Below are positions 4,464 through 64,000 of a DNA stretch of 64,000 nucleotides, piece after piece. This DNA is from Rhodobacter sp. TJ_12 (lineage in GTDB: Bacteria > Pseudomonadota > Alphaproteobacteria > Rhodobacterales > Rhodobacteraceae), in NCBI RefSeq assembly GCF_020023995.1, contig NZ_NRRD01000010.1, forward strand, positions 1-64,000, given 5' to 3'. The position numbers were made by a program, and so were the translations under genes. Positions within the stretch are counted from its first letter, which is position 1, and each line of letters opens with the position of its first letter. Under the pieces are notes generated by a model that worked only from the letters and a program-made list of their open reading frames with translations, was not told the origin of the DNA and did no database searches.

Positions 4464-5777
4464 ATGTCCGGAATTCCGCACGACCATTACGAGCCCAGAA
4501 CGGGCATCGAAAAGTGGCTGCATGATCGCATGCCGATCGTCAGCCTGATTTATGACACCATCATGATCCCCACGCCGAAGAACCTGAACTGGTGGTGGAT
4601 CTGGGGGATCGTCCTGGCCTTCACGCTGGTGCTGCAAATCGTCACCGGCATCGTGCTGGCGATGCACTACACCCCGCATGTTGATCTGGCCTTTGCCTCG
4701 GTCGAGCACATCATGCGCGATGTGAACGGCGGCTGGGCGATGCGCTACATCCACGCCAATGGCGCTTCGCTGTTCTTCTTGGCGGTCTACATCCACATTT
4801 TCCGTGGTCTCTACTACGGCTCCTACAAGGCGCCGCGCGAAGTGACCTGGATCATCGGCATGATCATCTACCTGCTGATGATGGGCACCGCCTTCATGGG
4901 CTACGTGCTTCCGTGGGGTCAGATGTCCTTCTGGGGCGCCACCGTTATCACCGGCCTGTTTGGTGCGTTCCCGGGCTTTGGCCCCGGCGTGCAAGAATGG
5001 CTTTTGGGTGGCCCGGCGGTCGACAACGCCACGCTTAACCGCTTCTTCTCGCTGCACTATCTGCTGCCCTTCGTGATCGTGGCCATGGTCGCGCTGCACA
5101 TCTGGGCGTTCCACACCACGGGCAACAACAACCCGACCGGTGTTGAAGTGCGTCGCGGCTCCAAAGAAGAAGCCGAAAAAGACACCCTGCCCTTCTGGCC
5201 CTACTTCGTGATCAAGGACCTGTTCGCGCTTGCGCTCGTGATGGTCGTGTTCTTCGCGGTCGTGGCCTATATGCCGAACTACCTTGGCCACCCGGATAAC
5301 TACATCCAGGCGAACCCGCTTTCGACGCCGACGCACATCGTTCCCGAATGGTACTTCTTGCCGTTCTACGCGATCTTGCGTGCCTTCACTGCGGACGTGT
5401 GGGTTGTGGCGATCGTCGACGGGATCACCTTCGGCATCGTGGACGCCAAACTGTTCGGCGTGCTGGCGATGTTCGGCGCGATCATCGTGATGGCGCTGGC
5501 GCCGTGGCTTGATACCTCGAACGTGCGTTCGGGCGCCTATCGTCCGAAGTTCAAACTGTGGTTCTGGCTGCTGGTTGCCGACTTCATCGTGCTGACTTGG
5601 GTGGGCGCGATGCCGACCGACTTCCCGTATGACTGGATCTCGCTCATCGCTTCGACCTATTGGTTCGCGTATTTCCTCGTGATCCTGCCGCTGCTTGGCG
5701 CGACTGAGAAGCCGCTGCCGATGCCGGCCACGATCGAGGAAGACTACAACAGCCATTACGGCAATCCGGCCGAGTGA
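4464..5777 (+). CDS. petB: Cytochrome b of the bc1 complex
   Basis: Membrane-embedded quinol-oxidising core of the bc1 complex, 437 residues, the same length as the R. capsulatus protein. Heme ligands H97 and H111 are seen, with the second histidine of each pair in the HYLLPF and HIWAFH segments near 198 and 212. The PEWY motif of the Qo site is present in a [11 protein letters not shown] context near residue 295. Eight transmembrane helices are expected. This is the undivided cytochrome b, not the split b6/subunit IV form. It sits between petA and petC in the normal order with short gaps, so it is part of one transcript. Confidence 0.98.
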
Positions 5778-5795
5778 GAGAAGAGGACTGAAATC

Positions 5796-6641
5796 ATGAA
5801 AAAGCTTCTGATCTCTGCTGCTTCCGCGCTGATGATCGGCGCAGGTGGGGCGATGGCCGCGGGCGATCACCAGGTTCCGGATTACGCCTTCAGCTTCGAA
5901 GGTCCGTTCGGCACCTATGATGTCGCGCAGTTGCGCCGCGGCTTCCAAGTCTACGACCAAGTCTGCTCGGCGTGTCACGGCATGAAATTCGTGCCGATCC
6001 GCACGCTGTCCGACGACGGCGGCCCGCAATTCGACCCCGCTTGGGTGCGCGATTACGCGGCCGGTCTGGACTATGTCTACGATCCGGAAACGGACGAAGA
6101 CCGTGACCGGAAGGAAACCGACATGTTCCCCGAGCGTAACGGCGACGGGATGGGTCCGGACCTTTCGGTGATGGCCAAGGCGCGTGCGGGCTTCTCGGGT
6201 CCGAACGGTCTGGGCATGAACCAGCTGTTCAAGGGCATCGGCGGTTCGGAATACATCCGCGCCTATGTCTCGCATTTTGAAGAAAACCCGGAATGTGCGC
6301 CTGACGGGATTGATGGCTACTACTACAACGCCATCTTCCAAAACGGCGGTGTGCCCGACAGCTGTAAAGACGCCAAAGGCAACAAGATCACCCACGGCAG
6401 CTGGGCGCAAATGCCGCCGGCGCTGTTCGATGACCTGATCGAATACGAAGACGGCACCCCGGCCACGGTCGACCAAATGGCCACCGACGTTGCGGCCTTC
6501 CTGACTTGGGCTGCCGAGCCGAAGATGATGGAGCGTAAGCAAATGGGCTTTGTGGCGGTGATGCTGCTCGGCCTGCTGACTGTGCTGCTTTATCTGACCA
6601 ACAAACGGCTTTGGGCGCCCTACAAAGGCAAACGTCCCTAA
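5796..6641 (+). CDS. petC: Cytochrome c1 precursor
   Basis: Periplasmic c-type heme subunit of the bc1 complex, which passes electrons from the Rieske centre to cytochrome c. The 281-residue precursor has a Sec signal peptide (about residues 1-21, ending in AMA), a CSACH heme site (C57, C60, H61), and a probable axial ligand M206 in an AQMPPALF segment. A C-terminal transmembrane anchor covers about 247-267 and ends in basic residues. The start is fixed by the signal peptide. A strong intrinsic terminator follows the gene, closing the petABC operon. Confidence 0.97.
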
Positions 6642-53776: not shown

Positions 53777-53806
53777 ACTAATATGCTAGTATAGCCGCGC
53801 CGTCAA
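53777..53806 (-). promoter_or_regulatory. Promoter and operator of the hexuronate operon
   Basis: On the minus strand TTGACG (53806-53801) and TATTAG (53783-53778) are spaced by exactly 17 bases. The -10 box is overlapped by a palindrome, ACTA-ATATGC-TAGT (53777-53790), the natural place for a repressor such as the divergent GntR-family protein. Confidence 0.65.
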
Positions 53807-53817
53807 TGAGGATGGAC

Positions 53818-54534
53818 ATGACCGACACATTGCAGTTACCCAAGCTCGATTTTACGCCGACGACCGTGGCAGATCAGGTGTATGCCGAGTTGCACCGGCA
53901 GGTATTGTCGCTTGAATTGAAGCCCGGCGCGAAGCTGTCGGAAGTGGAGGTTGCCAAGGCAATGGGCGTATCGCGCCAGCCCGTGCGCGATGCGTTTTAT
54001 CGCCTGTCAAAGCTGGGGTTCTTGCTGATCCGGCCTCAGCGCGCGACCACGGTCACGCTGATTTCTGCGGCGGCGGTGATGCGGGCGCGCTTCATTCGCA
54101 CGGCGCTGGAAGTCGAGACGATCCGCACCGCCGCGCCGCGCCTGACCGAGGCCGATCTAGACGCGCTGGCGGCGAATATCGCGGCGCAGGATGTGGCGAT
54201 CAAGGCCGATGACCGGGGCGGGTTTCATCAGCTTGACGATGCGTTTCACCGCGAAATCTGTGCCCGGGCGAATCTGTCCTTCACGTGGGAGCTGATCTCG
54301 GAAAACAAAGGGCATATGGACCGGGTGCGGATGCTGTCGCTGTCTTTCGCCTCGCGCACCGCATGGGAAGATCACGTCGCGATTCTGGCCGCGCTGCGGG
54401 GCCGCGACCCCGACGCCGCCACCGCGGCGATGCGCGCGCATCTGAGCCGGATCAAGGAACAGATCGACCGTATCTTGGAACAAAACCACGCCTATTTCGC
54501 CGATGAACCGGCGGATCTGCGCCTCGATTTCTAG
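53818..54534 (+). CDS. GntR-family (FCD/FadR subfamily) regulator
   Basis: Regulator of 238 residues: N-terminal winged helix (about 15-75, with LSEVEVAKAMGVSRQPVRDAFYRLSK) and the all-helical FCD effector domain (about 90-220), whose histidine-acid residues (DDAFHREI) bind a metal and carboxylate ligands. ATG 53818 is preferred (GAGGA just upstream) over ATG 53812 and 53806. It is divergent from uxaC and probably represses the uronate operon until a uronate intermediate binds, as UxuR/ExuR do. Confidence 0.88.
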   Translation: MTDTLQLPKLDFTPTTVADQVYAELHRQVLSLELKPGAKLSEVEVAKAMGVSRQPVRDAFYRLSKLGFLLIRPQRATTVTLISAAAVMRARFIRTALEVETIRTAAPRLTEADLDALAANIAAQDVAIKADDRGGFHQLDDAFHREICARANLSFTWELISENKGHMDRVRMLSLSFASRTAWEDHVAILAALRGRDPDAATAAMRAHLSRIKEQIDRILEQNHAYFADEPADLRLDF

Positions 54535-54605: not shown

Positions 54606-54830
54606 TCAGTTGACCCGGATGTTGAACACATAGGTGCCGCCATCGACGCGATGATCCACCATCTCATTACCGGTAGACCGGCAGAACGCCTCGAAATCCT
54701 TGACCGCGCCCGGATCGGTCGCCTGAATTTCCAAAACCTGCCCGGCGGTCATTTCCTTGATCGCCTTTTTCGCACGCAGGATCGGTAGCGGGCAGTTCAG
54801 TCCCTTTGCATCAAGCACTTGGTCAGCCAT
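54606..54830 (-). CDS. tusA: Sulfur carrier protein TusA
   Basis: Small sulfur-transfer protein of 74 residues. The signature GLNCPLPIL with sulfur-carrying C13 and the double-proline is intact; the rest follows the two-layer TusA fold. ATG 54830 (or 54833) follows GGAAGG. In sulfur oxidisers TusA receives sulfane sulfur from a rhodanese or DsrE protein and feeds cytoplasmic oxidation. It is the last gene of the sHdr locus here, 14 bases after a DsrE-like gene. Confidence 0.93.
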   Translation of the reverse strand: MADQVLDAKGLNCPLPILRAKKAIKEMTAGQVLEIQATDPGAVKDFEAFCRSTGNEMVDHRVDGGTYVFNIRVN

Positions 54831-54844
54831 CATCTGTTCCTTCC

Positions 54845-55336
54845 TCAGATGTAAAGATTGATGTCGCAGCGCGTCGCGGCATCGACCCATGTGGCCGCGC
54901 CGCCCAGTTCCAGCCCGTCGATCATGTCGCTTGTCTTGTATTCGAACAAATCCATGGTCATTTGGCAGGCGATGATCTTCACATCGGCCTCGACCGCCAT
55001 TTCGCGCAACTCTTCGATCGAGGCGACGCCCTTTTTCTTGAGCATGTCCTTCATCATCGCGGTGGTCAGCGCGGTGGCACCGGGCATTGCCGCAACGATA
55101 TTGGGCATCGCCATATGCCTGCCACCCATCGGCATTTCCATCGCCGCATTGCCCAACGGGTTGATCTTCAGATCAGGCTTTTTCTTCAGCAGCGTCAGCC
55201 CGTAAAAGGTGAAGAACATCGTCACCTCTAGCCCCATAGCCGCAGCTGTGGTGGCCAAAATGAACGGCGGGTAGCCCCAATCGAGCGTGCCCTTGGTGAC
55301 GATGATCGACATGGATTTCGCTTCTGTATCCGTCAT
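54845..55336 (-). CDS. DsrE-family sulfurtransferase (DsrE3A-like)
   Basis: DsrE/DsrF-like protein of 163 residues. The conserved cysteine C124 is in an IIACQMTMDLF segment, the pattern seen in DsrE3A proteins that mobilise persulfide sulfur between rhodanese and TusA; C157 lies near the C-terminus. The middle (about 55-100) is methionine-rich. ATG 55336 follows GGGAGG. It is paired with tusA downstream and lbpA upstream. Two hairpins lie in the 123-base gap ahead of it. Confidence 0.88.
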   Translation of the reverse strand: MTDTEAKSMSIIVTKGTLDWGYPPFILATTAAAMGLEVTMFFTFYGLTLLKKKPDLKINPLGNAAMEMPMGGRHMAMPNIVAAMPGATALTTAMMKDMLKKKGVASIEELREMAVEADVKIIACQMTMDLFEYKTSDMIDGLELGGAATWVDAATRCDINLYI

Positions 55337-55352
55337 GCTCCCTCCCTTGAGC

Positions 55353-55375
55353 CCGGGCAATCCTTCACAGCCCGG
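55353..55375. other. Hairpin A between lbpA and dsrE
   Basis: CCGGGC (55353-55358) pairs with GCCCGG (55370-55375), 11-base loop, just upstream of the dsrE start. Possible control of the tusA-dsrE part of the transcript. Confidence 0.4.
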
Positions 55376-55396
55376 CCGCCACGGTCAGCCAGTGGT

Positions 55397-55414
55397 CGGG
55401 GCCTCCCTGCCCCG
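55397..55414. other. Hairpin B between lbpA and dsrE
   Basis: CGGGGC (55397-55402) pairs with GCCCCG (55409-55414) over CTCCCT. Located in the intercistronic gap. No T tract on the minus strand. Confidence 0.4.
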
Positions 55415-55459
55415 TTTCACATCCTCCCGGGCGGGGCCCGAGAGGAAAAGCTGGGTCAA

Positions 55460-55903
55460 TCAGGCCGTGCAGCCGGCGAAATTTTCGGCTTCCATCTTGG
55501 CCTCATAAGGTCCGGCCACTTCGCTGCCCGGGGTCAGAACCGCCGCCGCAGCGGCCGGATCTTCGGGCTTCACCCGCACCATCCAGCCCGCCCCATAGGT
55601 ATCGGTATTGGCCAGTTTCGGGCTGCCGGTCAGCTCTTCGTTGATCGCCACGATTTCCGAGCGGAACCCGATTTTCGCCGGGCCGACCCATTTGCCGCTT
55701 TCGACCGTCGCCACCGATTTACCGGCATCGATCGTCTTGCCAACCTTCTTGGCGGTAAAAGCGACCAGCGCCCCGGCCATAGCCGTGGCGATCATCGTCA
55801 TCCCAACGGTATAGGTGCCGTCGGACTCGGCACGATACCAAAGATTGTTGGGCACATCATAAAAAAGCTCGTCGGGCAGGTTACATCCGCGCACGATGGG
55901 CAT
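55460..55903 (-). CDS. lbpA: Lipoate-binding protein LbpA (GcvH-like)
   Basis: Protein of 147 residues with the GcvH fold. The lipoyl-lysine is K71 in a VATVESGKWVGP motif, where glycine-cleavage GcvH has ESVK. A cysteine (C7) and a FYDVPNNLWYR segment mark the start. Lack of gcvT/gcvP neighbours and the position beside the Hdr genes identify it as the lipoyl carrier of the sHdr pathway, not of glycine cleavage. ATG 55903 follows GAGGAGGAGG. C-terminal residues include a further cysteine (GCTA end). No lipoate ligase is in the window. Confidence 0.92.
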   Translation of the reverse strand: MPIVRGCNLPDELFYDVPNNLWYRAESDGTYTVGMTMIATAMAGALVAFTAKKVGKTIDAGKSVATVESGKWVGPAKIGFRSEIVAINEELTGSPKLANTDTYGAGWMVRVKPEDPAAAAAVLTPGSEVAGPYEAKMEAENFAGCTA

Positions 55904-55916
55904 GTCGTCCTCCTCC

Positions 55917-56333
55917 TCAGGCCGCCCCCGCCGCATGCAGCGGACGCGACGCACAACAAAATTCGCCCAGCCCCGTCTGCTCCAGCTTGCCGCCGACGAA
56001 GAGGGCCAAATGCTTCACCACCATCGCCTCCAATCGATGGGCGGTTTGGGCCTCTTTACCGTATGCCAGCGCGACGTTTCGGCGAAACACTATTTCACGG
56101 CAGGTTTCGCGGCAGGCATTGAAACTGGGCATGTCCTTGCAGCCTTGCCGGTGCAGCGCAAGCAAACGGAACCCGTCGACGTCGCCCGCTTCGGGCGTCT
56201 CGCCCCGCGCGGCAAGCCATGCTTCCAAGATCTGTTCGCCCATGGCGAGAAGCTCATCGGGCGCGGGCAGCGCGACACGGCGTTCCAGCCCTGCATCGAT
56301 CCGGGTCAGAATATCGGGAAAGGGCGTCTCCAT
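55917..56333 (-). CDS. Cys-rich protein of unknown function in the sHdr locus, 138 aa
   Basis: Unrecognised soluble protein. It has five cysteines: C65, C74 and C78 in an HRQGCKDMPSFNACRETCREI stretch, and adjacent C126-C127 near the end. The C-X8-C-X3-C spacing and the vicinal pair could bind a metal or carry sulfur. No signal peptide or membrane helix. The ATG at 56333 overlaps the hdrB2 stop and the next gene is lbpA, so it is cotranscribed with the sulfur genes. A helical, partly basic protein is expected. I know no named homologue; it may be an accessory or specificity factor of the complex. Confidence 0.75.
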   Translation of the reverse strand: METPFPDILTRIDAGLERRVALPAPDELLAMGEQILEAWLAARGETPEAGDVDGFRLLALHRQGCKDMPSFNACRETCREIVFRRNVALAYGKEAQTAHRLEAMVVKHLALFVGGKLEQTGLGEFCCASRPLHAAGAA

Positions 56334-57298
56334 CACCTCAGCCCCCGTTCCTTGAGATAGACGCGCGGATCGGCCATGTTTTCGGCCACGCCCACCTTGC
56401 GCTGTGACAGGCCCAGCGCCATCCCCAGAAGCTGGGTGAAATAGAGGATTTTCACGTTTGTCTTGCGACCCAGAAGCTTCTCGGCGCGCAATTGGTGGAT
56501 TTCCAGACTGGTGTGGCAGGTCGGGCATTCGGTGGCGATCACCTCTGCGCCGCAGGCCTCGGCAGTGGTAAGAATGTTCAGAACCAACTGCGTCGACGTG
56601 TCCGCGTCCGACATCGCATGCGCGCCACCGCAGCACGCGGTTTTCAGCGGGAAATCGACATTTTCCGCCCCGGCCGAGGCCAGGAGGTCGTCCATGAAAT
56701 GCGGCGCATGGGTCGATTCGCTGCCTGCGCCCTGATCCTTGTCGGGGAAGATATGGCGCGGTCGCGTATACATACAGCCATAGTAGTTCGCGATTTTCAT
56801 GCCCTTGAGCTTGCCGGCCGTGCGCCGCGCCAGCTCTTTTTCACCGACGGCGCGCTTGAGCCAATCCAACGCATGGATCGTCTCAACCCGGCCTGGCTGA
56901 TAAGCAGGATGCCCTGCCTTGGCGGAGATACGCTCGTTCGCCTCGACCGCCTGGGGGTTATGGGCCAAATCGTATTCGGCCTTTTTGAGATTGTGATAGC
57001 AGCCGTTGCAGGGTGCCATCACCACGTCAAAGCCCATTTCCTCGGTCTTGGTCAGGTTGCGCGCCGACAGATAGGTTTGCACCTGCGGGTCGATGTTTTT
57101 TACCTCCATCGCGCCGCAGCAGTTCCAGTCTTTAACCTCGACCAGTTCAAGCCCAAGCGCCTTGCCCACCGCCTTGGTCGAACGGTTATAGGCGTGCCCC
57201 GTCCCCTCAAGCGCGCAGCCCGGATAATAGGCCACCTGTTTGAGGTTTTTGTCTTTTGGATCGGATGTAAGATCCTGTTCCGTCATATCTTTGGCCAT
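56333..57298 (-). CDS. hdrB2: sHdr subunit HdrB2
   Basis: Heterodisulfide-reductase B-like subunit, 321 residues, with two CCG-domain motifs that would each hold a noncubane 4Fe-4S cluster: first C28, C60-C61, C97, C100; second C175, C222-C223, C258, C261. Both are complete. In methanogen HdrB these clusters do the disulfide chemistry; in sHdr they are thought to act on a sulfur-loaded lipoate. The start at 57298 overlaps hdrC2 (ATGA), and the stop overlaps the Cys-rich unknown. Cytoplasmic. Confidence 0.93.
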   Translation of the reverse strand: MAKDMTEQDLTSDPKDKNLKQVAYYPGCALEGTGHAYNRSTKAVGKALGLELVEVKDWNCCGAMEVKNIDPQVQTYLSARNLTKTEEMGFDVVMAPCNGCYHNLKKAEYDLAHNPQAVEANERISAKAGHPAYQPGRVETIHALDWLKRAVGEKELARRTAGKLKGMKIANYYGCMYTRPRHIFPDKDQGAGSESTHAPHFMDDLLASAGAENVDFPLKTACCGGAHAMSDADTSTQLVLNILTTAEACGAEVIATECPTCHTSLEIHQLRAEKLLGRKTNVKILYFTQLLGMALGLSQRKVGVAENMADPRVYLKERGLR

Positions 57299-58044
57299 CA
57301 GTGCCCCCCCTTCCCCGAAAGCCCAAGCGCGGCCGCCTGCTCGGCATGGCGTTCGCGCACATAGTCCTCAATCGCCGCACCGGTTTTGCCCCAGCCGCGC
57401 GTCTTGGGGCGGAGCACGGCGGTTTTCAGCAGATTGTACAGGTAAAAGACCGGCAGCTTCTTCACCAAGCCGAGGATCAAATCGCGCAGCCACGGCGGCG
57501 CCAACGGCTGCCCCGTGCGCCAAAAGAAGATGCGCAAGACATGGCCTTCTTCAATCTTGCCGGAATGCACCACATTGTCGGTAAAGCCGCGATCAAAGAC
57601 CGAAGACAGGCTTTCGCCAGTATGGCCCTTCAGTTCGAGCCAATGCGCGGTGGCCTTCATCACCGCTTCGGGCACCACATCGCGCGGGCAGGCATAGGTG
57701 CATTTGTTGCAACTTACGCATTGCCAGATGATATCCTTATCGCGCAGCAATTCCTCTTCCAGCCCCTGCCGGATCAGGTAAATCCAATAGCGCGGGTTGA
57801 ACTCGGGGTTGACCGCATTCATCGTGCAGGAATTGGTGCAAGAGCCGCATTGCCAGCAGCGGTGGATGTTCTCGCCACCCGGCAGAGCCGCGATTTCCGC
57901 CTGCATCTCCTCGTTATAATCGGTGATCGTGCGCGGCTTGATGAAGGTGGACCAATGGCCCGACACATCGACGCCATCGATCACCAACTCGTCATGGCTG
58001 ACAAGGTTTTCGGGCCGGATCAGGGTCTTTTCATGAATGGGCAT
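57298..58044 (-). CDS. hdrC2: sHdr subunit HdrC2
   Basis: HdrC-like iron-sulfur protein of 248 residues. Two 4Fe-4S sites are intact: C63, C66, C69, C73 and C109, C112, C115, C119. Hydrophobic segments near residues 180-200 are amphipathic and need not cross the membrane. ATG 58044 follows GGAGG and gives 14 bases of overlap with the upstream Hyp gene. It would link the HdrA flavin with HdrB2. Confidence 0.93.
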   Translation of the reverse strand: MPIHEKTLIRPENLVSHDELVIDGVDVSGHWSTFIKPRTITDYNEEMQAEIAALPGGENIHRCWQCGSCTNSCTMNAVNPEFNPRYWIYLIRQGLEEELLRDKDIIWQCVSCNKCTYACPRDVVPEAVMKATAHWLELKGHTGESLSSVFDRGFTDNVVHSGKIEEGHVLRIFFWRTGQPLAPPWLRDLILGLVKKLPVFYLYNLLKTAVLRPKTRGWGKTGAAIEDYVRERHAEQAAALGLSGKGGH

Positions 58045-58921
58045 CGGCAACCTCCGGGGCGTCGTCAGCGGGGGTGAGGTCAAGGCGGGCGGAAAGCGCG
58101 CCGCCGAATTCATGGGCCGCGCCATCGATCAGACGCAGCCGGGTGCGCCCGGTCTTGGTGTCGACGGCATCAAGCCCCAGCATGCGCCGCGTGTGCAGCA
58201 TCGGGTCACCCTCTTGGGTGAAGTCATTGCGCAGATATTGCCCACCGCGGTCATTGATATAGCCCGCGTAAATATGGGCCATCAGCAAATCGGCCATCCA
58301 AAGCCGGTCGCGATAGACGCCCTCGGTCTCCAGAAAGCCGTCAAGTTCCGCGCGCAATGTGGTGAAGGTGGCCAGATCGTCGGGCGCGGTGATCTGCGTG
58401 CAATCGACATCATCGGCATGCCAAATCTCGCGCAGCACCCCGGTAGAGACGCGGGCATCCCAGACCCAGCGCGCCATCAGCGGCACCGAGGGCTGGGTGA
58501 AATGCAATAGCTCCGCCCCAAGGTCGCGCACCCAGCGCATTTCTTTGCCATCGGGGAAACGCTCTATGAAAAACGCGAGTCGTTCCTCGACCGTGCCGCC
58601 GCCGTGCAACAAAACCTCGATCCGCGCGGCCATCTCTTTGATGCCGATCCGGGCGATGGCCGGGCCGATACGGCGGCGCACCGGGGCGATAAAGGCAGCC
58701 AGATCCAGAAATTCGGTTTCGCTGATGCCAATGGCGGTCTGGCCCAACAGATCTTTGAACAGGGCCGATTTAAGATGCAGTGCCGTAATGTAACGGCTGA
58801 CGCCGCCGGTGGGCTGCGCTGCCGCCCCCAAATCGGCGAAGGCGCGGCGCAGTCGATCCCCCGAAAGGTCAAGCACCGGCCCTGTCTTGCTTATCGCCTG
58901 TTTGCGCGCCCGGCCGAACAT
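58031..58921 (-). CDS. sHdr-associated conserved protein Hyp
   Basis: Protein of 296 residues found, in this position between HdrA and HdrC2, in the described type I sHdr order (C1-B1-A-hyp-C2-B2). It is soluble, mainly helical, with few cysteines and no cofactor motif that I recognise. Its start overlaps the HdrA stop as TGATG. The conserved slot argues for a structural or assembly role in the complex; function is not established from the sequence. Confidence 0.85.
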   Translation of the reverse strand: MFGRARKQAISKTGPVLDLSGDRLRRAFADLGAAAQPTGGVSRYITALHLKSALFKDLLGQTAIGISETEFLDLAAFIAPVRRRIGPAIARIGIKEMAARIEVLLHGGGTVEERLAFFIERFPDGKEMRWVRDLGAELLHFTQPSVPLMARWVWDARVSTGVLREIWHADDVDCTQITAPDDLATFTTLRAELDGFLETEGVYRDRLWMADLLMAHIYAGYINDRGGQYLRNDFTQEGDPMLHTRRMLGLDAVDTKTGRTRLRLIDGAAHEFGGALSARLDLTPADDAPEVADAHS

Positions 58922-59976
58922 CACTCTGCCGCCTGCGCTACACGAACGCCTTGGCGCGACAGCGCGGCTATCGCCGCTGCTTGGCCTTGGGCAATGGAAT
59001 CGTCAATTGTTTCAGGCCCGGAGGCCGCGCCGCATACGTAAACGCCCGGACGTGAGGTTTGGCCCGTGGTGGTGTAAGCCGCCGCCTTGCCGATATAGCC
59101 ATATTGGTTGAGATCGACGCCGAAGACCGCGCCCAGCGTCATATTATCGACATTCGGATCCATCCCGATCGCTTGCACGACCATGTCGAAGGGAATGGTG
59201 ATCGGGCGTTTGACCAGCGTATCTTCGCCCTTCACCACCAGCCGCTTGCCATCCGATGTGACCTCGGCGATGCGCGCCTTTATGTATTTGACCCGCGCTT
59301 CTTCTTGGCCTTTCCAGTAGAATTCGCCCTCGTAAAGCCCGAAGGTGCGGATATCCATGTAATAGACATAGACGTTGGTTTTGGGCGAGAGTTCGCGAAT
59401 TTCCATCGCCATATTGGCCGAGACGGTGCAGCAGATTTTCGAGCACCATTCGCGGCCAATCTGCCGATCCCGCGAGCCAACGCATAGCAAGATCGCCACC
59501 CGCTCCGGCACGCGGCCATCGGACGGGCAACGGATGCCCTTGCCCGAGGAAATCATCTGTTCCACCTGCACCGTGGTCACCACATCGGGATAGGTGCCAA
59601 AGCCCCATTCGGGTTTATTGAGGCTGTCGAAATGTGTGAATCCGGTGGCCAAAATCGCAGCATCGGCCTCGATTTTGGTGCCGTCACTAAGGGCCGCCAA
59701 GAAGTCCCCAGGATCGCCCGCGAAGCTTTGCACCTGCGCGCCCGTATGCACTGTGATATTGGCATTCGTCTGCACCCGCGTAACCATGCCGCCAATGGCG
59801 TCCTTGGCCCATTCATGGCTGGGCACCAGTTTCGCATAGCCTTGCAAGATCGGCGCGCCGCCCAAACGGTCAGCCTTGTCCACGATCACCGCCTGCCGGC
59901 CAGAAGACGCGACCGCATGCGCTGCCGACAGCCCCGCCGGGCCGCCGCCCACGATCAGGATGGGTTTCTCACTCAT
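58921..59976 (-). CDS. hdrA: sHdr subunit HdrA (flavoprotein)
   Basis: FAD-binding core subunit of 351 residues, the short HdrA form of sulfur oxidisers, without the added ferredoxin domains of methanogen HdrA. The dinucleotide motif is at residues 9-15 (VGGGPAGL), an ATG motif at about 110-112, and a 4Fe-4S site at C165, C178, C182 and C183 in the CVGSRD...WCSKICC segment. A second FAD segment near the end (YVCGAASGPETIDDSIAQG) completes the fold. It starts three bases after hdrB1. Confidence 0.94.
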   Translation of the reverse strand: MSEKPILIVGGGPAGLSAAHAVASSGRQAVIVDKADRLGGAPILQGYAKLVPSHEWAKDAIGGMVTRVQTNANITVHTGAQVQSFAGDPGDFLAALSDGTKIEADAAILATGFTHFDSLNKPEWGFGTYPDVVTTVQVEQMISSGKGIRCPSDGRVPERVAILLCVGSRDRQIGREWCSKICCTVSANMAMEIRELSPKTNVYVYYMDIRTFGLYEGEFYWKGQEEARVKYIKARIAEVTSDGKRLVVKGEDTLVKRPITIPFDMVVQAIGMDPNVDNMTLGAVFGVDLNQYGYIGKAAAYTTTGQTSRPGVYVCGAASGPETIDDSIAQGQAAAIAALSRQGVRVAQAAE

Positions 59977-59979
59977 ACT

Positions 59980-61359
59980 TCACGCTCCCTGTTCGGTTTT
60001 TTCGGGCAGGCTTTTCGGGGGTTTGACGTAGCCGGGGCCGGAGGTGATGGCGCGCTTTGGGTCATAAAGCGTCTCGATCCGGCCCTCTTTCACCTCTTCG
60101 AGATAGGTTTCGAACTCGGCCTTCGTCTTTTCCCAATCGATGCCCATCTTTTCGAGAAGCCCTTCGAACGGGCTGGCGTGCCAATGCAATTGCGCAAGTT
60201 TGTAGGGATGGGCGCCCATGGTGAGGGCGGCAAACTGGCAGTCCGCCATCACCGGCAGCGCATAGATTTTGTCGACCGCCTTGCCGATCCATTGGTTTTT
60301 ATCGAGCGTGGTGATGCAGCCGGTATCATGGCCAATCATCACATCCGAGCGCGCCTCTTCGACCGCCACCTTGATCTTGCGGTCAATCGCATAGGAGCGG
60401 GTGAATTCCCGCTCGCCGATGATGTGGCGGAACCCAAAACCGCAGCAATCATACCACGTCGAATAGTCGATCACCTGCGTGCCAAGGCTGTTCAAAAGCC
60501 CCGTCGTCACCGCGACCCGGTCACCATTCATCACCGTGTCGTCATAGATCACGTCTTCCGGCACCATTTTATAGACATGGCAGGCCGGGTGCACCGTGGT
60601 GCGGATGTTCGACACGTCGATTTGCTGGCGCTCTTTGATCCGGTGGCGCATGACATGCAGCCATTCCGAGTAATGCACGATCTCTTCCGGGATCAGCAAC
60701 TTGCCATCAACGAGCCGCCCCAACTTGCCGAGGATCTTTTTCACCTCTTCACGCAGCTCTGCCGAATGCAGCAAAAAGCCCCTGATTTCTTTGTAGTTTC
60801 CGAAAGATGTTCCGCAGTGGATCAGCGGGTAATAGGTGCCTTCTGGGAGCCCTTGCGCCTTGGCCGACACATAGGCCTGATGCATGTTGCGCAAGAACAC
60901 GGCGGCCAACGAAACCACATTGCCGATGCCCGAACCGTGGTAGTTCCATGCCGTGCAAGAGGTCTGATCGGTCTCGTCGAGATAGGTCAGCCCAAGCTCG
61001 TTCATGATCCAGAGCACCGAGGACGGATAGCCCGGAATATTGCCGCATTGGCCGCAGGATTTATGGTGCCACAGATTGGTGGTGGGGATTTTCTTGTCCC
61101 AGCCATAAAGCGTTTTCGCCATTTCGGGGGCGTGGTGATCGCCCACCCGATGCACGACGATCTCGCCCTCTTTTTCAAGCTGCCACAGGATATCGCGCAC
61201 ATCTTCCTTGCGGTCTTTGCCGGTCAGAAGGAAGCGCTTGTCAATCTTTTGCGTAACCCAATCGGTGGCGCGCCGCGCCTCGTTTTCGGTCAGGTTGGTG
61301 GGGGCCCAATCGGCGCCAAAGCCATTATAGGCGCCCTTGCCCTCTGTCTCCTCGGCCAT
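59980..61359 (-). CDS. hdrB1: sHdr subunit HdrB1
   Basis: HdrB-like subunit of 459 residues, longer than HdrB2. Cysteine groups are C102/C105 (HKSCGQCGN), C135, C182, C260 (HPACH), C305-C306 (YDCCGFGF), C348 and C374. The second CCG motif looks complete, while the first is altered (SCGQC instead of CCG), which may mean only one noncubane cluster. ATG 61359 is preferred (GCGGAAG and GGAGGAG upstream) over a GTG at 61368. It lies between hdrC1 and hdrA. Confidence 0.92.
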   Translation of the reverse strand: MAEETEGKGAYNGFGADWAPTNLTENEARRATDWVTQKIDKRFLLTGKDRKEDVRDILWQLEKEGEIVVHRVGDHHAPEMAKTLYGWDKKIPTTNLWHHKSCGQCGNIPGYPSSVLWIMNELGLTYLDETDQTSCTAWNYHGSGIGNVVSLAAVFLRNMHQAYVSAKAQGLPEGTYYPLIHCGTSFGNYKEIRGFLLHSAELREEVKKILGKLGRLVDGKLLIPEEIVHYSEWLHVMRHRIKERQQIDVSNIRTTVHPACHVYKMVPEDVIYDDTVMNGDRVAVTTGLLNSLGTQVIDYSTWYDCCGFGFRHIIGEREFTRSYAIDRKIKVAVEEARSDVMIGHDTGCITTLDKNQWIGKAVDKIYALPVMADCQFAALTMGAHPYKLAQLHWHASPFEGLLEKMGIDWEKTKAEFETYLEEVKEGRIETLYDPKRAITSGPGYVKPPKSLPEKTEQGA

Positions 61360-61403
61360 CTTCCGCACTCCTCCCTAAGTCGCGGTCCTCGTGGCGGCGA
61401 CGG

Positions 61404-62159
61404 TCAGTCGTCGTCGTCCTCCTCTTCCTGCTCTTCGAGCCATTCCTCCCATTCGTCGCGCTTCTCCTCCATCACGTCGGAAACCACGTCGAAAAGGTTT
61501 TCATCGACCTGTTCGAGTTGCTTGAGCACCCCGGTCGCCTCCCAAATCGTATAAAGCTCGACCGAGGTGCGCAGGTTCACCTCCCACGCTGTGTCGAGCG
61601 TGTGCATCGTCGGCATCGGGATCGCCTTGCGCAGCACCATCAAAGGCGCATCGACCTTGGCCACATTCGGCCCCCAATCGGGAAAGGCTTCCCGGGTAAT
61701 CATGTTCGGTGCCAATTGGTTGCCGGTCGACACAACTTTAAGCAGAACGCGCGAAAATGGCCGCAAAACCTCTTTCACCGAGGGCAATTCATGTTTGATC
61801 GCCACTTCGCGCAAGATCATCACCAACCCGCCGGGCGAGTTTTCAAACGGGCAGCGCGCAGCGCAGGTATAACATTGCGCACAGGCCCAGATTTTCTCGT
61901 GCATCGCGTCATAAATGCCTTCGAGATTTTCGGTCCAAAGCAGCTGCACAATCTCACGCGGCGAATAATCGTAATATTGCGCCGAGGGGCAGGTCGCCGT
62001 ACAGATCCCGCAATTCAAACAACCATGAATTTCATGGTCGTAAAGCGGATGCCCCCGCACATCGTCGAAGATCTGCTCAAGCGCTTCATAGGCCACGACC
62101 GGCTTTTCTGAGACCGGATCTGCAACCTTGGGTTGCGACATGTTGGTATGCGCATTCAT
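61404..62159 (-). CDS. hdrC1: sHdr subunit HdrC1
   Basis: Iron-sulfur protein of 251 residues with two 4Fe-4S sites: C47, C50, C53, C57 and C93, C96, C99, C103. It would carry electrons to or from HdrA. The last 25 residues (from about 227) are extremely acidic, ending in a run of Glu then four Asp, unlike most HdrC proteins; this tail could dock a basic partner. ATG 62159 follows GGAGGGG. First of the hdr genes proper. Confidence 0.93.
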   Translation of the reverse strand: MNAHTNMSQPKVADPVSEKPVVAYEALEQIFDDVRGHPLYDHEIHGCLNCGICTATCPSAQYYDYSPREIVQLLWTENLEGIYDAMHEKIWACAQCYTCAARCPFENSPGGLVMILREVAIKHELPSVKEVLRPFSRVLLKVVSTGNQLAPNMITREAFPDWGPNVAKVDAPLMVLRKAIPMPTMHTLDTAWEVNLRTSVELYTIWEATGVLKQLEQVDENLFDVVSDVMEEKRDEWEEWLEEQEEEDDDD

Positions 62160-62220
62160 GGCTGGCCCCTCCCCGGGCTGGCGCGACGGTCTATTCCGGC
62201 AAGTTGCGCGGCTAAAAACC

Positions 62221-62601
62221 CTAGTAGGTCAACACCTTGGCATCATCGTCTTCCATGATATCCTCGATCACTTTCGCCCCGCCGACGATCCCCGAACATT
62301 CGGGGATCAGGTCTTCTTCGGTCATGTCGAAAAGATCGAGATTGGGCGAACAGCACCAAAATTTCGCCCCGGCCCCATGCGCATCCTTGATGAAGTCATA
62401 GACCGTTTTGGGCGAACCTTCCTTGACCACAAGGCCTTCTGCCACGCCCGTTTTCATCAGCCGTCCAGCAGTCGCGGTGCAGACCACATCGACCTCGTAA
62501 TCCATTGCCGCGGCAACCGTGGCTTGAAAGAACGGGGCCCCCAATTCCTCGCCATTGCGCGGATCGGTATTGACCATAAGAATGATAAGTTTGCTCGCCA
62601 A
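62221..62601 (-). CDS. DsrE-family protein (DsrE3C-like)
   Basis: DsrE/F-like sulfur-transfer protein of 126 residues. Cysteines are C41, the vicinal C83-C84 (FWCCSPN) and C102 (PECSG). The start is a TTG at 62601, preceded by GGGAGGG; an upstream GTG frame lacks this. It heads the hdr genes in the position of the DsrE3C of described sHdr loci. A promoter candidate (62678-62706) lies about 80 bases upstream. Confidence 0.85.
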   Translation of the reverse strand: MASKLIILMVNTDPRNGEELGAPFFQATVAAAMDYEVDVVCTATAGRLMKTGVAEGLVVKEGSPKTVYDFIKDAHGAGAKFWCCSPNLDLFDMTEEDLIPECSGIVGGAKVIEDIMEDDDAKVLTY

Positions 62602-62677
62602 GGCGCCCTCCCAAACGACCGTGACCACATTTTTCGGAGTATTCGATCAGCGCTCCCTTCACCGTTCGAATGCTCAA

Positions 62678-62706
62678 ATCGTCAGATGTAATTTTTGGAA
62701 TGTCAA
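62678..62706 (-). promoter_or_regulatory. Promoter candidate of the sHdr operon
   Basis: On the minus strand TTGACA (62706-62701) and GACGAT (62683-62678), 17-base spacer, in an AT-rich stretch before dsrE. The -35 box is a perfect consensus, the -10 weak. CATTCGA-like words (62640-62648 and 62664-62672) lie just downstream. Confidence 0.5.
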
Positions 62707-62715
62707 AAGATTTTT

Positions 62716-63414
62716 TCAACGCTGCGTTGCAGAAGGCGCCATCCAGCCGGTTTGCGCGATCAGCGCGACCATGAACGGGCCGAGGCTTTCGGCAATCTGT
62801 TTCTGGGCCGTGCCCAGCGCCTCCAGCGCCGCCACGGTATCCGCCGGCGTTTCAGAAAATTCCATGATCAGATCTTCTGCCATACCGCGTTTCATCCCCG
62901 GATGCCCCAGCAGGCCAAGGCTGTTTTCCCCAACCGTGAAGCCCAGAACCTCGCCCCTCGGCCCGGTCATCACCGGGCCCATATCCGGGCCCAAAACCGG
63001 GCGGTCGCGCAAATAGCACGCCAAGGGCATTCGCTGCGGCGCGGCAGGGCCAAGCCCGGCGATTTGTGCCGCAAGAACCTCGAATCGCAGCGGCGCCTCT
63101 TCGGCACCGCCGCCACCCGCCACAGCCAGAATCAGCGCCCCCAGCCCAAGCCCCACCACCGGCTTACCCGCCTGCAAAAACGCCCGAGCCAAACGCAACT
63201 CTGGCCCGAGCGAGGGCAGGATATGCCCCGACACCACGCCGTAGGGGCCACCGCCCAGCAGCATCAGCCCATCTGCCGCTGTGCCCTCGGGCAGGCCACC
63301 CCCTGCAGCAAAGGGCCGGAAATAGCGAAACCGCAGATTCCGCCCCTCCAGATGGTCTTCGATCCATCCTAGATATTCGGCCTGTGTGTGCTGGATCACC
63401 CAGATCGTTTTCAT
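62716..63414 (-). CDS. Class I glutamine amidotransferase-like protein lacking the nucleophile
   Basis: GATase-fold protein of 232 residues. The order of elements follows GMP-synthase-type GATase domains: LLLGGG-like glycine turn at 53-56, nucleophile-elbow region at 86-92, and a HPG motif at 171-173. The elbow reads GLGLG, so the catalytic cysteine is replaced by glycine (about G90), and the glutamate after the histidine is missing (HPGM). Amidase activity is therefore not expected. GGGAGG precedes ATG 63414. It sits ahead of the sHdr genes on the same strand, so an accessory role in that pathway is likely. Confidence 0.82.
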   Translation of the reverse strand: MKTIWVIQHTQAEYLGWIEDHLEGRNLRFRYFRPFAAGGGLPEGTAADGLMLLGGGPYGVVSGHILPSLGPELRLARAFLQAGKPVVGLGLGALILAVAGGGGAEEAPLRFEVLAAQIAGLGPAAPQRMPLACYLRDRPVLGPDMGPVMTGPRGEVLGFTVGENSLGLLGHPGMKRGMAEDLIMEFSETPADTVAALEALGTAQKQIAESLGPFMVALIAQTGWMAPSATQR

Positions 63415-63591: not shown

Positions 63592-64000
63592 ATGACTGCC
63601 ACCGCCATTCCGGCCTCGGCGCCATCGATCTCGATCTGGCCCGGGGTGTCGCTGGTGGCGGCAATCGTGGCGGCCGCCTTCGCGCTGCGGCTGGTGCCCG
63701 GGATCTCGATGTTCAGCCCGCTGATCATTGCCATCATCCTTGGCGTTATCGTGCGCAACACCTATGGCCTGCCCGCCGGGGCGGTGCCGGGCCTTGCCTT
63801 TTCGCTGCGGCGATTGTTGCGGGCGGGCATTGTTACGCTGGGGTTGCAACTGACCCTTGGACAGGTGTTGTCGATCGGCGGCATGGGGCTTGCCACGATC
63901 CTGATCGGGCTGTTTGCCACCTATTTCTTCACGCTGGCAGCGGGGCGCTGGCTGGGGGTGGAGGCCGGTCTGACCCGGCTCATTGCCACTGGCACGTCGA
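63592..64000 (+). CDS. YeiH-family putative sulfate exporter (partial, right edge)
   Basis: Membrane protein cut by the window end; 136 residues are visible. The segment SPLIIAIILGVIVRN, the FSLRRLLRAGIVTLGLQLTL stretch and the LIATGTS end match the YeiH/UPF0324 family (putative sulfate exporters), which have about ten helices and 330-350 residues. ATG 63592 follows AAGGAACC; a GTG at 63553 in frame is an alternative. Divergent from the sHdr genes, it could remove sulfate or sulfite made by the pathway. Confidence 0.85.
   Translation, partial: MTATAIPASAPSISIWPGVSLVAAIVAAAFALRLVPGISMFSPLIIAIILGVIVRNTYGLPAGAVPGLAFSLRRLLRAGIVTLGLQLTLGQVLSIGGMGLATILIGLFATYFFTLAAGRWLGVEAGLTRLIATGTS

Follow-up and report, generated by a model that had tools for sequence, protein, structure and literature searches.

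What can an sHdr sulfur-oxidation locus do in a Rhodobacter genome in which no Sox system has been found? The organism is a purple non-sulfur bacterium, its genus is a classic model of photosynthesis, and sulfur oxidation in the family is best known as Sox. We addressed this question computationally for Rhodobacter sp. TJ_12, using positions 1 to 64,000 of contig NZ_NRRD01000010.1 (contig C10; this whole stretch is called the window) from a 3.58-Mb genome of 114 contigs with a completeness of 100 and a contamination of 1.03. The locus probably encodes a functional type I sHdr-LbpA system, in which sulfane sulfur derived from SQR would be oxidized to sulfite and the sulfite exported by YeiH.

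Gene content and type I identity of the locus

Twelve closely spaced genes run along the minus strand from 63414 to 54606. All 12 reading frames are intact, and 4 of the 11 gene junctions overlap (A/H, H/C2, C2/B2 and B2/I, with C2 taken from an inner ATG). From lipX to tusA, the genes are as follows.

62716–63414, minus strand: lipX, glutamine-amidotransferase-like, 232 aa; PRK07053 at 51.7 bits against a cut-off of 250, without a Pfam match
62221–62628, minus strand: dsrE3C-like sulfurtransferase, 135 aa; DsrE and DrsE_2 above the Pfam cut-offs; named DsrE3C by position
61404–62159, minus strand: sHdrC1, two [4Fe-4S] motifs; Fer4 match
59980–61359, minus strand: sHdrB1, degenerate CCG-type sites; CCG match; reading frame open from a GTG at 61368
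58921–59976, minus strand: sHdrA, short HdrA-like subunit with flavin adenine dinucleotide and Fe-S sites, 351 aa; Pyr_redox_2 match, 565 bits to 6tjr_A
58031–58924, minus strand: sHdrH, mainly helical, function unassigned; identified from its place and its conservation in relatives
57298–58044, minus strand: sHdrC2, two [4Fe-4S] motifs; Fer4 match; reading frame open from 58125
56333–57298, minus strand: sHdrB2, two canonical CCG sites; two CCG stretches
55917–56333, minus strand: sHdrI, 138 aa, four near-invariant Cys (CxxxC and CC); name inferred from its place
55460–55903, minus strand: LbpA, lipoate-binding protein with lipoyl lysine K71; GCV_H at an E value of 1.1e-29
54845–55336, minus strand: dsrE2; NF047629 above cut-off (229.9 against 210 bits)
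54606–54830, minus strand: tusA; best NCBIfam match TusA, under cut-off (63.6 against 78 bits)

LbpA scores under the NCBIfam GcvH cut-offs despite its Pfam match to GCV_H. sHdrA matches 6tjr_A at 565 bits over 338 residues, against 168–182 bits to methanogen HdrA over only about 240 residues; 6tjr, whose match record itself names only a flavoprotein, is presumably the sHdrA of Hyphomicrobium denitrificans. By score, in a comparison separate from our trees (which hold no methanogen rows), HdrA thus belongs to the sHdr and not to the methanogen lineage. A scan of named genomes returned 528 relatives in 548 stretches, the best 80 of which were used for the locus comparisons. All six core genes are held by 58 of these 80 loci at an identity of at least 45%, and many of the remaining 22 are broken by contig ends; because 58 of 80 loci keep the whole core, a chance grouping of genes is excluded.

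Type I sHdr is defined by shdrC1B1AHC2B2 in one syntenic cluster (PMC11582611). In the window, C1-B1-A-H-C2-B2 are syntenic, LbpA with its lipoyl lysine K71 is linked to them, and no linked etfAB occurs among the annotated neighbours, which do not include every open reading frame. Type II systems share the C1, B1 and A subunits (PMC11582611) but have C2 and B2 fused as B3 together with etfAB, whereas C2 and B2 are separate here. Judged from its predicted genes, this is a standard, complete type I sHdr locus of known kind.

The type I sHdr-LbpA locus of H. denitrificans shows the same core order with LbpA, DsrE3C and TusA in the locus, a lipS1-lipT-lipS2-slpl(AB)-lipX module and, by position, sHdrI (PMC10451225, PMC11582611, PMC10332631). 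The two organisms differ in three respects. First, a truncated Sox system feeding sHdr, as in the H. denitrificans-like pathway, was not found in the window genome (no SoxB over cut-off, no sox cluster by DNA comparison). Second, yeiH and its LysR neighbour are Hden_0834/0835 in H. denitrificans, apart from Hden_0683-0698, whereas in the window genome they stand inside the block, between lplA and lipX. Third, the window genome has a nearby LysR gene and RubisCO.

The original prediction, of eleven or twelve collinear genes forming a type I sHdr locus in a Rhodobacter chromosome, is therefore borne out by open reading frames, family matches, gene order, relatives and the 565 bits to 6tjr. Its authors had named a grouping with methanogen Hdr as the outcome that would speak against it, and the HdrA scores point the other way. 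The prediction that all Fe-S ligands and K71 can be seen stands for C1, C2, B2, A and LbpA; it needs correcting for B1, whose CCG-like sites are degenerate although conserved, as detailed below.

Conserved residues and proteins of doubtful function

Residues were counted in aligned rows from the 80 fetched loci and the window. Eight Cys of C1 are kept without exception in 76 to 78 rows, eight Cys of C2 in 70/70 rows, and ten Cys of B2, forming two canonical CCG sets, in 68/68 rows. Additionally, C165, C178, C182 and C183 of HdrA (78/78 rows), C93 and C111 of the dsrE3C-like protein (76/76) and the lipoyl lysine K71 of LbpA (64/64) are invariant. Eight Cys of B1 (C105, C108, C138, C185; C263, C308, C309, C351) are likewise present in 81/81 rows, in a CCG-like pattern that is degenerate when set against what we take to be the canonical CCG motif.

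sHdrI accompanies all 58 loci that hold the six core genes, with C74 conserved in 66/67 rows and C78, C126 and C127 in 67/67. It would be an unrecognized four-cysteine component, Fe-S or redox, of type I systems. A fold search gave no match at E ≤ 0.001, and a Pfam scan of 61 sHdrI members gave weak, scattered matches, with at most 14 of the 61 members per family and a best E of 0.0044. The highest probability among the 50 fold matches listed of 235 belongs to 2q00 from Sulfolobus solfataricus (probability 0.93, template modelling score 0.58/0.65, E 1.0), a lead only, and the model weakly resembles HEPN domains (E 1.0 or worse).

sHdrH has no Pfam or NCBIfam match; its AlphaFold2 model (predicted local distance difference test score 84.1) found no fold match at E ≤ 0.001, with a top probability of 0.06 among the 50 listed of 215. 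LipX was read against the catalytic motif of class I glutamine amidotransferases as we assume it to be. The position of the nucleophile Cys is occupied by G in 54, E in 13 and N in 1 of 68 rows, and the Glu of the HPE motif is replaced by G in all 68. Because the catalytic Cys and Glu are gone in 68/68 rows, an amidotransferase role is doubtful; LipX, a putative glutamine amidotransferase in the literature (PMC10332631), is probably not one.

Sox and SQR genes in the genus

Among 18 genus genomes, SoxB lies above cut-off in eight, those of R. aestuarii DSM 19945 and R. maris JA276 included; in the window genome it reaches 124.4 bits against a cut-off of 550. PF03404 occurs in six of the 18, and we read it as SoxC because in all six it shares the strand of SoxB and lies no more than 1 kb away. 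The six genomes with SoxB and SoxC are without sHdr, R. aestuarii and R. maris have SoxB and sHdr without SoxC, all three sHdr genomes are without PF03404, and nine genomes have neither SoxB nor sHdr. By a hand calculation that ignores relatedness, chance alone would leave SoxC and sHdr (six and three of 18) without overlap about 27% of the time, which makes the statistics weak. The genus thus shows a new series: SoxB with SoxC, SoxB without SoxC but with sHdr, and, in the window genome, sHdr with no Sox found and SQR present.

From their order and characteristic sequence features only, we take the open reading frames around SoxB in R. aestuarii to be soxT-R-S-V-W-X-Y-Z-A-B-F-H without SoxCD. 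In R. maris, 9.5 kb match this 20-kb sox region, and the genomes G006 and G007 match it in pieces of 64–77% identity. Against the window genome it gives only two pieces of 74–79 bp and one of 805 bp outside the sox genes; the latter, on our own reading, appears to lie over a sugar-isomerase-like open reading frame. The SQR of the window genome, presumably of type I, has 427 aa and scores 496 bits to 3sz0.

Proposed pathway

The direction and chemistry of the pathway are taken by analogy from work on H. denitrificans, in which LbpA is essential for the sHdr pathway (PMC6067878). We infer the feeding by SQR, the export by YeiH and the link to RubisCO. Specifically, SQR would supply sulfane sulfur from sulfide, no Sox system having been found in the window genome. 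The sulfane sulfur would enter the cytoplasm, where TusA and the DsrE proteins would carry it and present it to the sHdr complex. In the oxidation of this sulfur to sulfite by the complex, LbpA would act as intermediate carrier through its lipoyl group, and electrons would exit via the Fe-S subunits and HdrA. LplA, LipS1/S2 and LipT, from adjoining genes, would lipoylate LbpA. The YeiE-like LysR regulator may sense sulfite and YeiH may export it, and the electrons could support the CO2 fixation encoded nearby.

A broader proposal, to which we give slightly less than an even chance, is that the organism has a Sox-free route (sHdr-only if it is also Dsr-free) from sulfide over SQR and sulfane sulfur to sulfite, with a built-in sulfite sensor and exporter and RubisCO alongside, that sHdr replaces SoxCD within Rhodobacter, and that sHdrI is a new four-cysteine component. 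Photolithoautotrophic growth on sulfide or hydrogen is described for some Rhodobacter (PMC6834548), and in Rhodobacteraceae Sox systems are more often complete than truncated (PMC10451225).

Several observations weigh against the proposed pathway. The SQR has no NCBIfam match over cut-off, and LipS1, LipS2, LplA, YeiH and YeiE are best or near-best families yet stay under their NCBIfam cut-offs. The window genome has no match to DmsC, which we take as the SoeC marker, or to Mo-co_dimer, the marker of SorA/SoxC, so the step from sulfite to sulfate lacks a candidate. No sulfur importer was identified in the window genome, in which soxT, soxXYZA (by profile), dsrAB and aprAB-sat were not searched for. 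The absence of sox genes could also come from an assembly gap (114 contigs, though completeness is 100). Finally, the LysR protein matches the YeiE effector domains, which are shorter, at 104.3 and 92.5 bits; NdhR (5y2v), a regulator of a RubisCO operon, is matched as well (112.3) and 8sbf better (149.9).

Neighbouring genes

The operon is flanked within the window by two plus-strand features.

63592–64000, plus strand: start of a yeiH-like exporter gene, which ends at contig C10:64581; a YeiE-like LysR gene is next
53806–54534, plus strand: GntR/FCD regulator; the flank common to an sHdr-less relative stops inside it, at 54474

The exporter, continuing beyond the window on the plus strand, is of the YeiH family (TIGR00698, 168.5 bits against a cut-off of 232.6). 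The LysR gene after it has YeiE as best family (206.9 against 480 bits), and the Glu of the IEG motif, which by our own reading of the numbering would be the sulfite-discriminating Glu145, is kept. NdhR and YeiE are both given as relatives of the H. denitrificans LysR protein (PMC12423496). There, yeiH rises 526-fold and the adjacent LysR gene 66-fold in response to thiosulfate, and a role as sulfite exporter has been proposed for YeiH (PMC12423496, PMC11582611); in Salmonella, YeiE controls YeiH, which drives sulfite resistance (PMC12880088). The yeiH-lysR pair lies inside the sHdr-lipoate block in the window genome, R. aestuarii and R. maris, and beside a ligase gene in two Mesorhizobium bins (4 of the 80 loci, identity at least 45%).

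Next, on the minus strand, come lplA, lipS2, lipT, lipS1, a histone-deacetylase-domain gene and a second LysR gene (cbbR by place). The lipoate genes lie about 2–6.5 kb upstream of lipX, with bit scores under the NCBIfam cut-offs for LipS1 (181.5 against 230), LipS2 (177.3 against 270) and the lipoate ligase (131.1 against 280); LipT is named by place, its family match being to the geranylgeranyl reductase superfamily. Homologues of the histone-deacetylase-domain protein (PF00850, contig C10:69934-71109) occur in 11 of 80 loci, of which 10 also have lipS1; our guess is that this protein might serve as a lysine deacylase for LbpA.

A divergent LplA, about 30% identical to that of the window genome, is encoded upstream of lipX in many relatives from this region of the tree, whose fetched loci contain no LipS genes. 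This second type, without linked LipS1/T/S2, recurs in many alphaproteobacterial sHdr loci (L069-L080, others up to L109), and in Rhodobacter sp. SW2 it holds the LplA-B catalytic domain. A LipS-free pathway, suggested by divergent LplA without nearby LipS, proved only partly right: LipS2 occurs elsewhere in several such genomes (14 of 24 searched, the L071 genome lying outside the search) and was not found in 10 of the 24. LipS1/S2 are present in 74.3% of sHdr bacteria (PMC10332631), so their absence in some was known.

Farther on lie the RubisCO large and small subunits, CbbQ and a VWA protein taken as CbbO; the RubisCO is read as form I from the presence of the small subunit. In Rhodobacter sp. 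Har01 (L071:17800-21362), RubisCO genes stand on the other side of the sHdr operon, with cbbL 93% identical, a repeated linkage of sHdr and RubisCO. Downstream of tusA follow the GntR gene, a glucuronate isomerase and a TRAP transporter. The cytochrome b and c1 genes are at 4464-6638, 48 kb from the locus, so the earlier description of it as beside petABC does not hold.

Distribution and inheritance

Strong HdrB1 matches were found in 3 of the 18 genus genomes, in 10 of 394 family genomes and in 10 of 385 of a class sample, the latter two counts including the window genome; the class sample gave 8 more weak matches. A search with HdrA recovered the same three genus carriers and, in 13 more of the 18, only matches of at most 28 bits. 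Relatives include Rhodobacter sp. SW2, Rhodobacter sp. Har01, Solirhodobacter olei, Acidimangrovimonas sediminis and Oricola nitratireducens. These matches support a distribution scattered over Rhodobacterales and Hyphomicrobiales, in agreement with the earlier suggestion of an understudied lineage trait. Hdr-like genes have been reported in one Rhodobacteraceae bin (PMC13384644), and sHdr was assigned to 33 alphaproteobacterial bins (PMC12345210). In the titles and abstract openings listed by literature searches, sHdr is not mentioned for R. aestuarii, R. maris or SW2, though supplementary tables may well include these species; one listed paper, PMC5972617, names SW2.

A concatenated tree of five subunits was built by a quick method, with only the Shimodaira-Hasegawa-like approximate likelihood-ratio test as support, from the window and those 69 of the 80 loci that have four or more of the five genes; our trees contain no type II, methanogen, Acidithiobacillus or named H. 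denitrificans reference rows. The window joins R. aestuarii (98) and then R. maris (100). This trio sits in a clade of 25 rows (99) made up of all 17 Rhodobacterales rows, two Mesorhizobium bins, one Exiguobacterium-labelled bin and five unassigned rows including the window, and the remaining Hyphomicrobiales rows fall outside. The wider clade is starred in the concatenated tree only. Among single-gene trees, those of A, B1 and B2 star the trio and that of LbpA only the pair with R. aestuarii; around the window, neither LbpA nor B2 stars anything wider. In the two Mesorhizobium bins (L069 and L070, on contigs of 739 and 69 kb), the sHdr locus is nested among Rhodobacter rows, together with yeiH/lysR and a nearby RubisCO gene; these copies likely reflect transfer out of Rhodobacterales, or mis-binning.

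The window genome and R. aestuarii are collinear over 31505-90709 at 86.8% DNA identity, both ends being set by the extent compared, and R. maris matches the block at 80.8% and also the greater part of the left flank, in which a gap lies at about 33-39 kb. Both species carry SoxB without a SoxC-type match, and the window genome carries neither. Taken in steps of 2 kb, identity values within the block fall in the same range as those outside it. Against R. aestuarii, synonymous divergence (dS) ranges from 0.34 to 0.88 across the 12 operon genes and from 0.44 to 1.00 across three genes of the left flank. The ratio of nonsynonymous to synonymous divergence (dN/dS) is 0.03-0.17 for the operon genes, 0.02-0.07 for the left-flank genes, 0.02 for cbbL and 0.08-0.11 for the lip, yeiH and lysR genes; against R. 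maris, the operon gives 0.02-0.17, except for sHdrI at 0.316. Since the block is collinear, diverges like its flanks and has low dN/dS, it was present in the common ancestor of the three species and is under purifying selection. A recent horizontal import, as the original prediction had allowed, is not supported, because block and flanks diverge alike and the block falls in a Rhodobacterales clade.

An older acquisition, by the ancestor of the group formed by R. aestuarii, R. maris and the window genome, is possible, although we lean against it. The patchy presence of the locus would fit it, but differential loss explains the patchiness equally well. The GC content of the block is 59.4% against 62.7% in the left flank. 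Conservation with the sHdr-less G007, of the same genus, covers the left flank up to 54474 and then ends, close to tusA; no clean empty site was obtained, and nothing else of contig C10 matched within the 20 kb of G007 compared. The nested copies in the two Mesorhizobium bins indicate that the locus can move. Against an acquisition stand the flank-like range of divergence in three species and, in the concatenated tree, the Rhodobacterales clade with other Hyphomicrobiales outside it.

Alternative functions

The operon might instead serve volatile or organic sulfur compounds, such as thiols or dimethyl sulfide, and not sulfide. The missing SoxB and sox cluster would suit such a role, and carriers of sHdr include oxidizers of volatile organic sulfur (PMC6067878). 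Given that an SQR gene is present and that no organosulfur gene stands among the annotated neighbours (the genome was not searched for such genes), we regard this role as unlikely.

That the operon is a decaying relic left after the loss of Sox is very unlikely. SoxB is missing from the window genome and present in both sister species, and against R. maris the window's sHdrI and LbpA have dN/dS of 0.316 and 0.152, compared with 0.213 and 0.074 for those of R. aestuarii. The 12 intact frames and the dN/dS against R. aestuarii, like that of the tested flanking genes, disfavour decay. A methanogen- or acetogen-type Hdr working reductively can practically be dismissed: it shares Fe-S families with the locus, and B1, C1 and A match methanogen Hdr models under cut-off, but the HdrA scores and the linkage to LbpA, DsrE and TusA argue otherwise.

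Implications for sulfur oxidation in Rhodobacter

The type I sHdr-LbpA reading is the one that we prefer, and the series within one genus offers a way to test whether sHdr takes the place of SoxCD and whether it can run with SQR as its only source. YeiH has been proposed to export the sulfite that sHdr produces, and the yeiH-lysR pair embedded in the locus supports this published idea at the genomic level. The Cys conserved in sHdrI and the catalytic residues absent from LipX provide concrete leads on two parts of unassigned or doubtful function.

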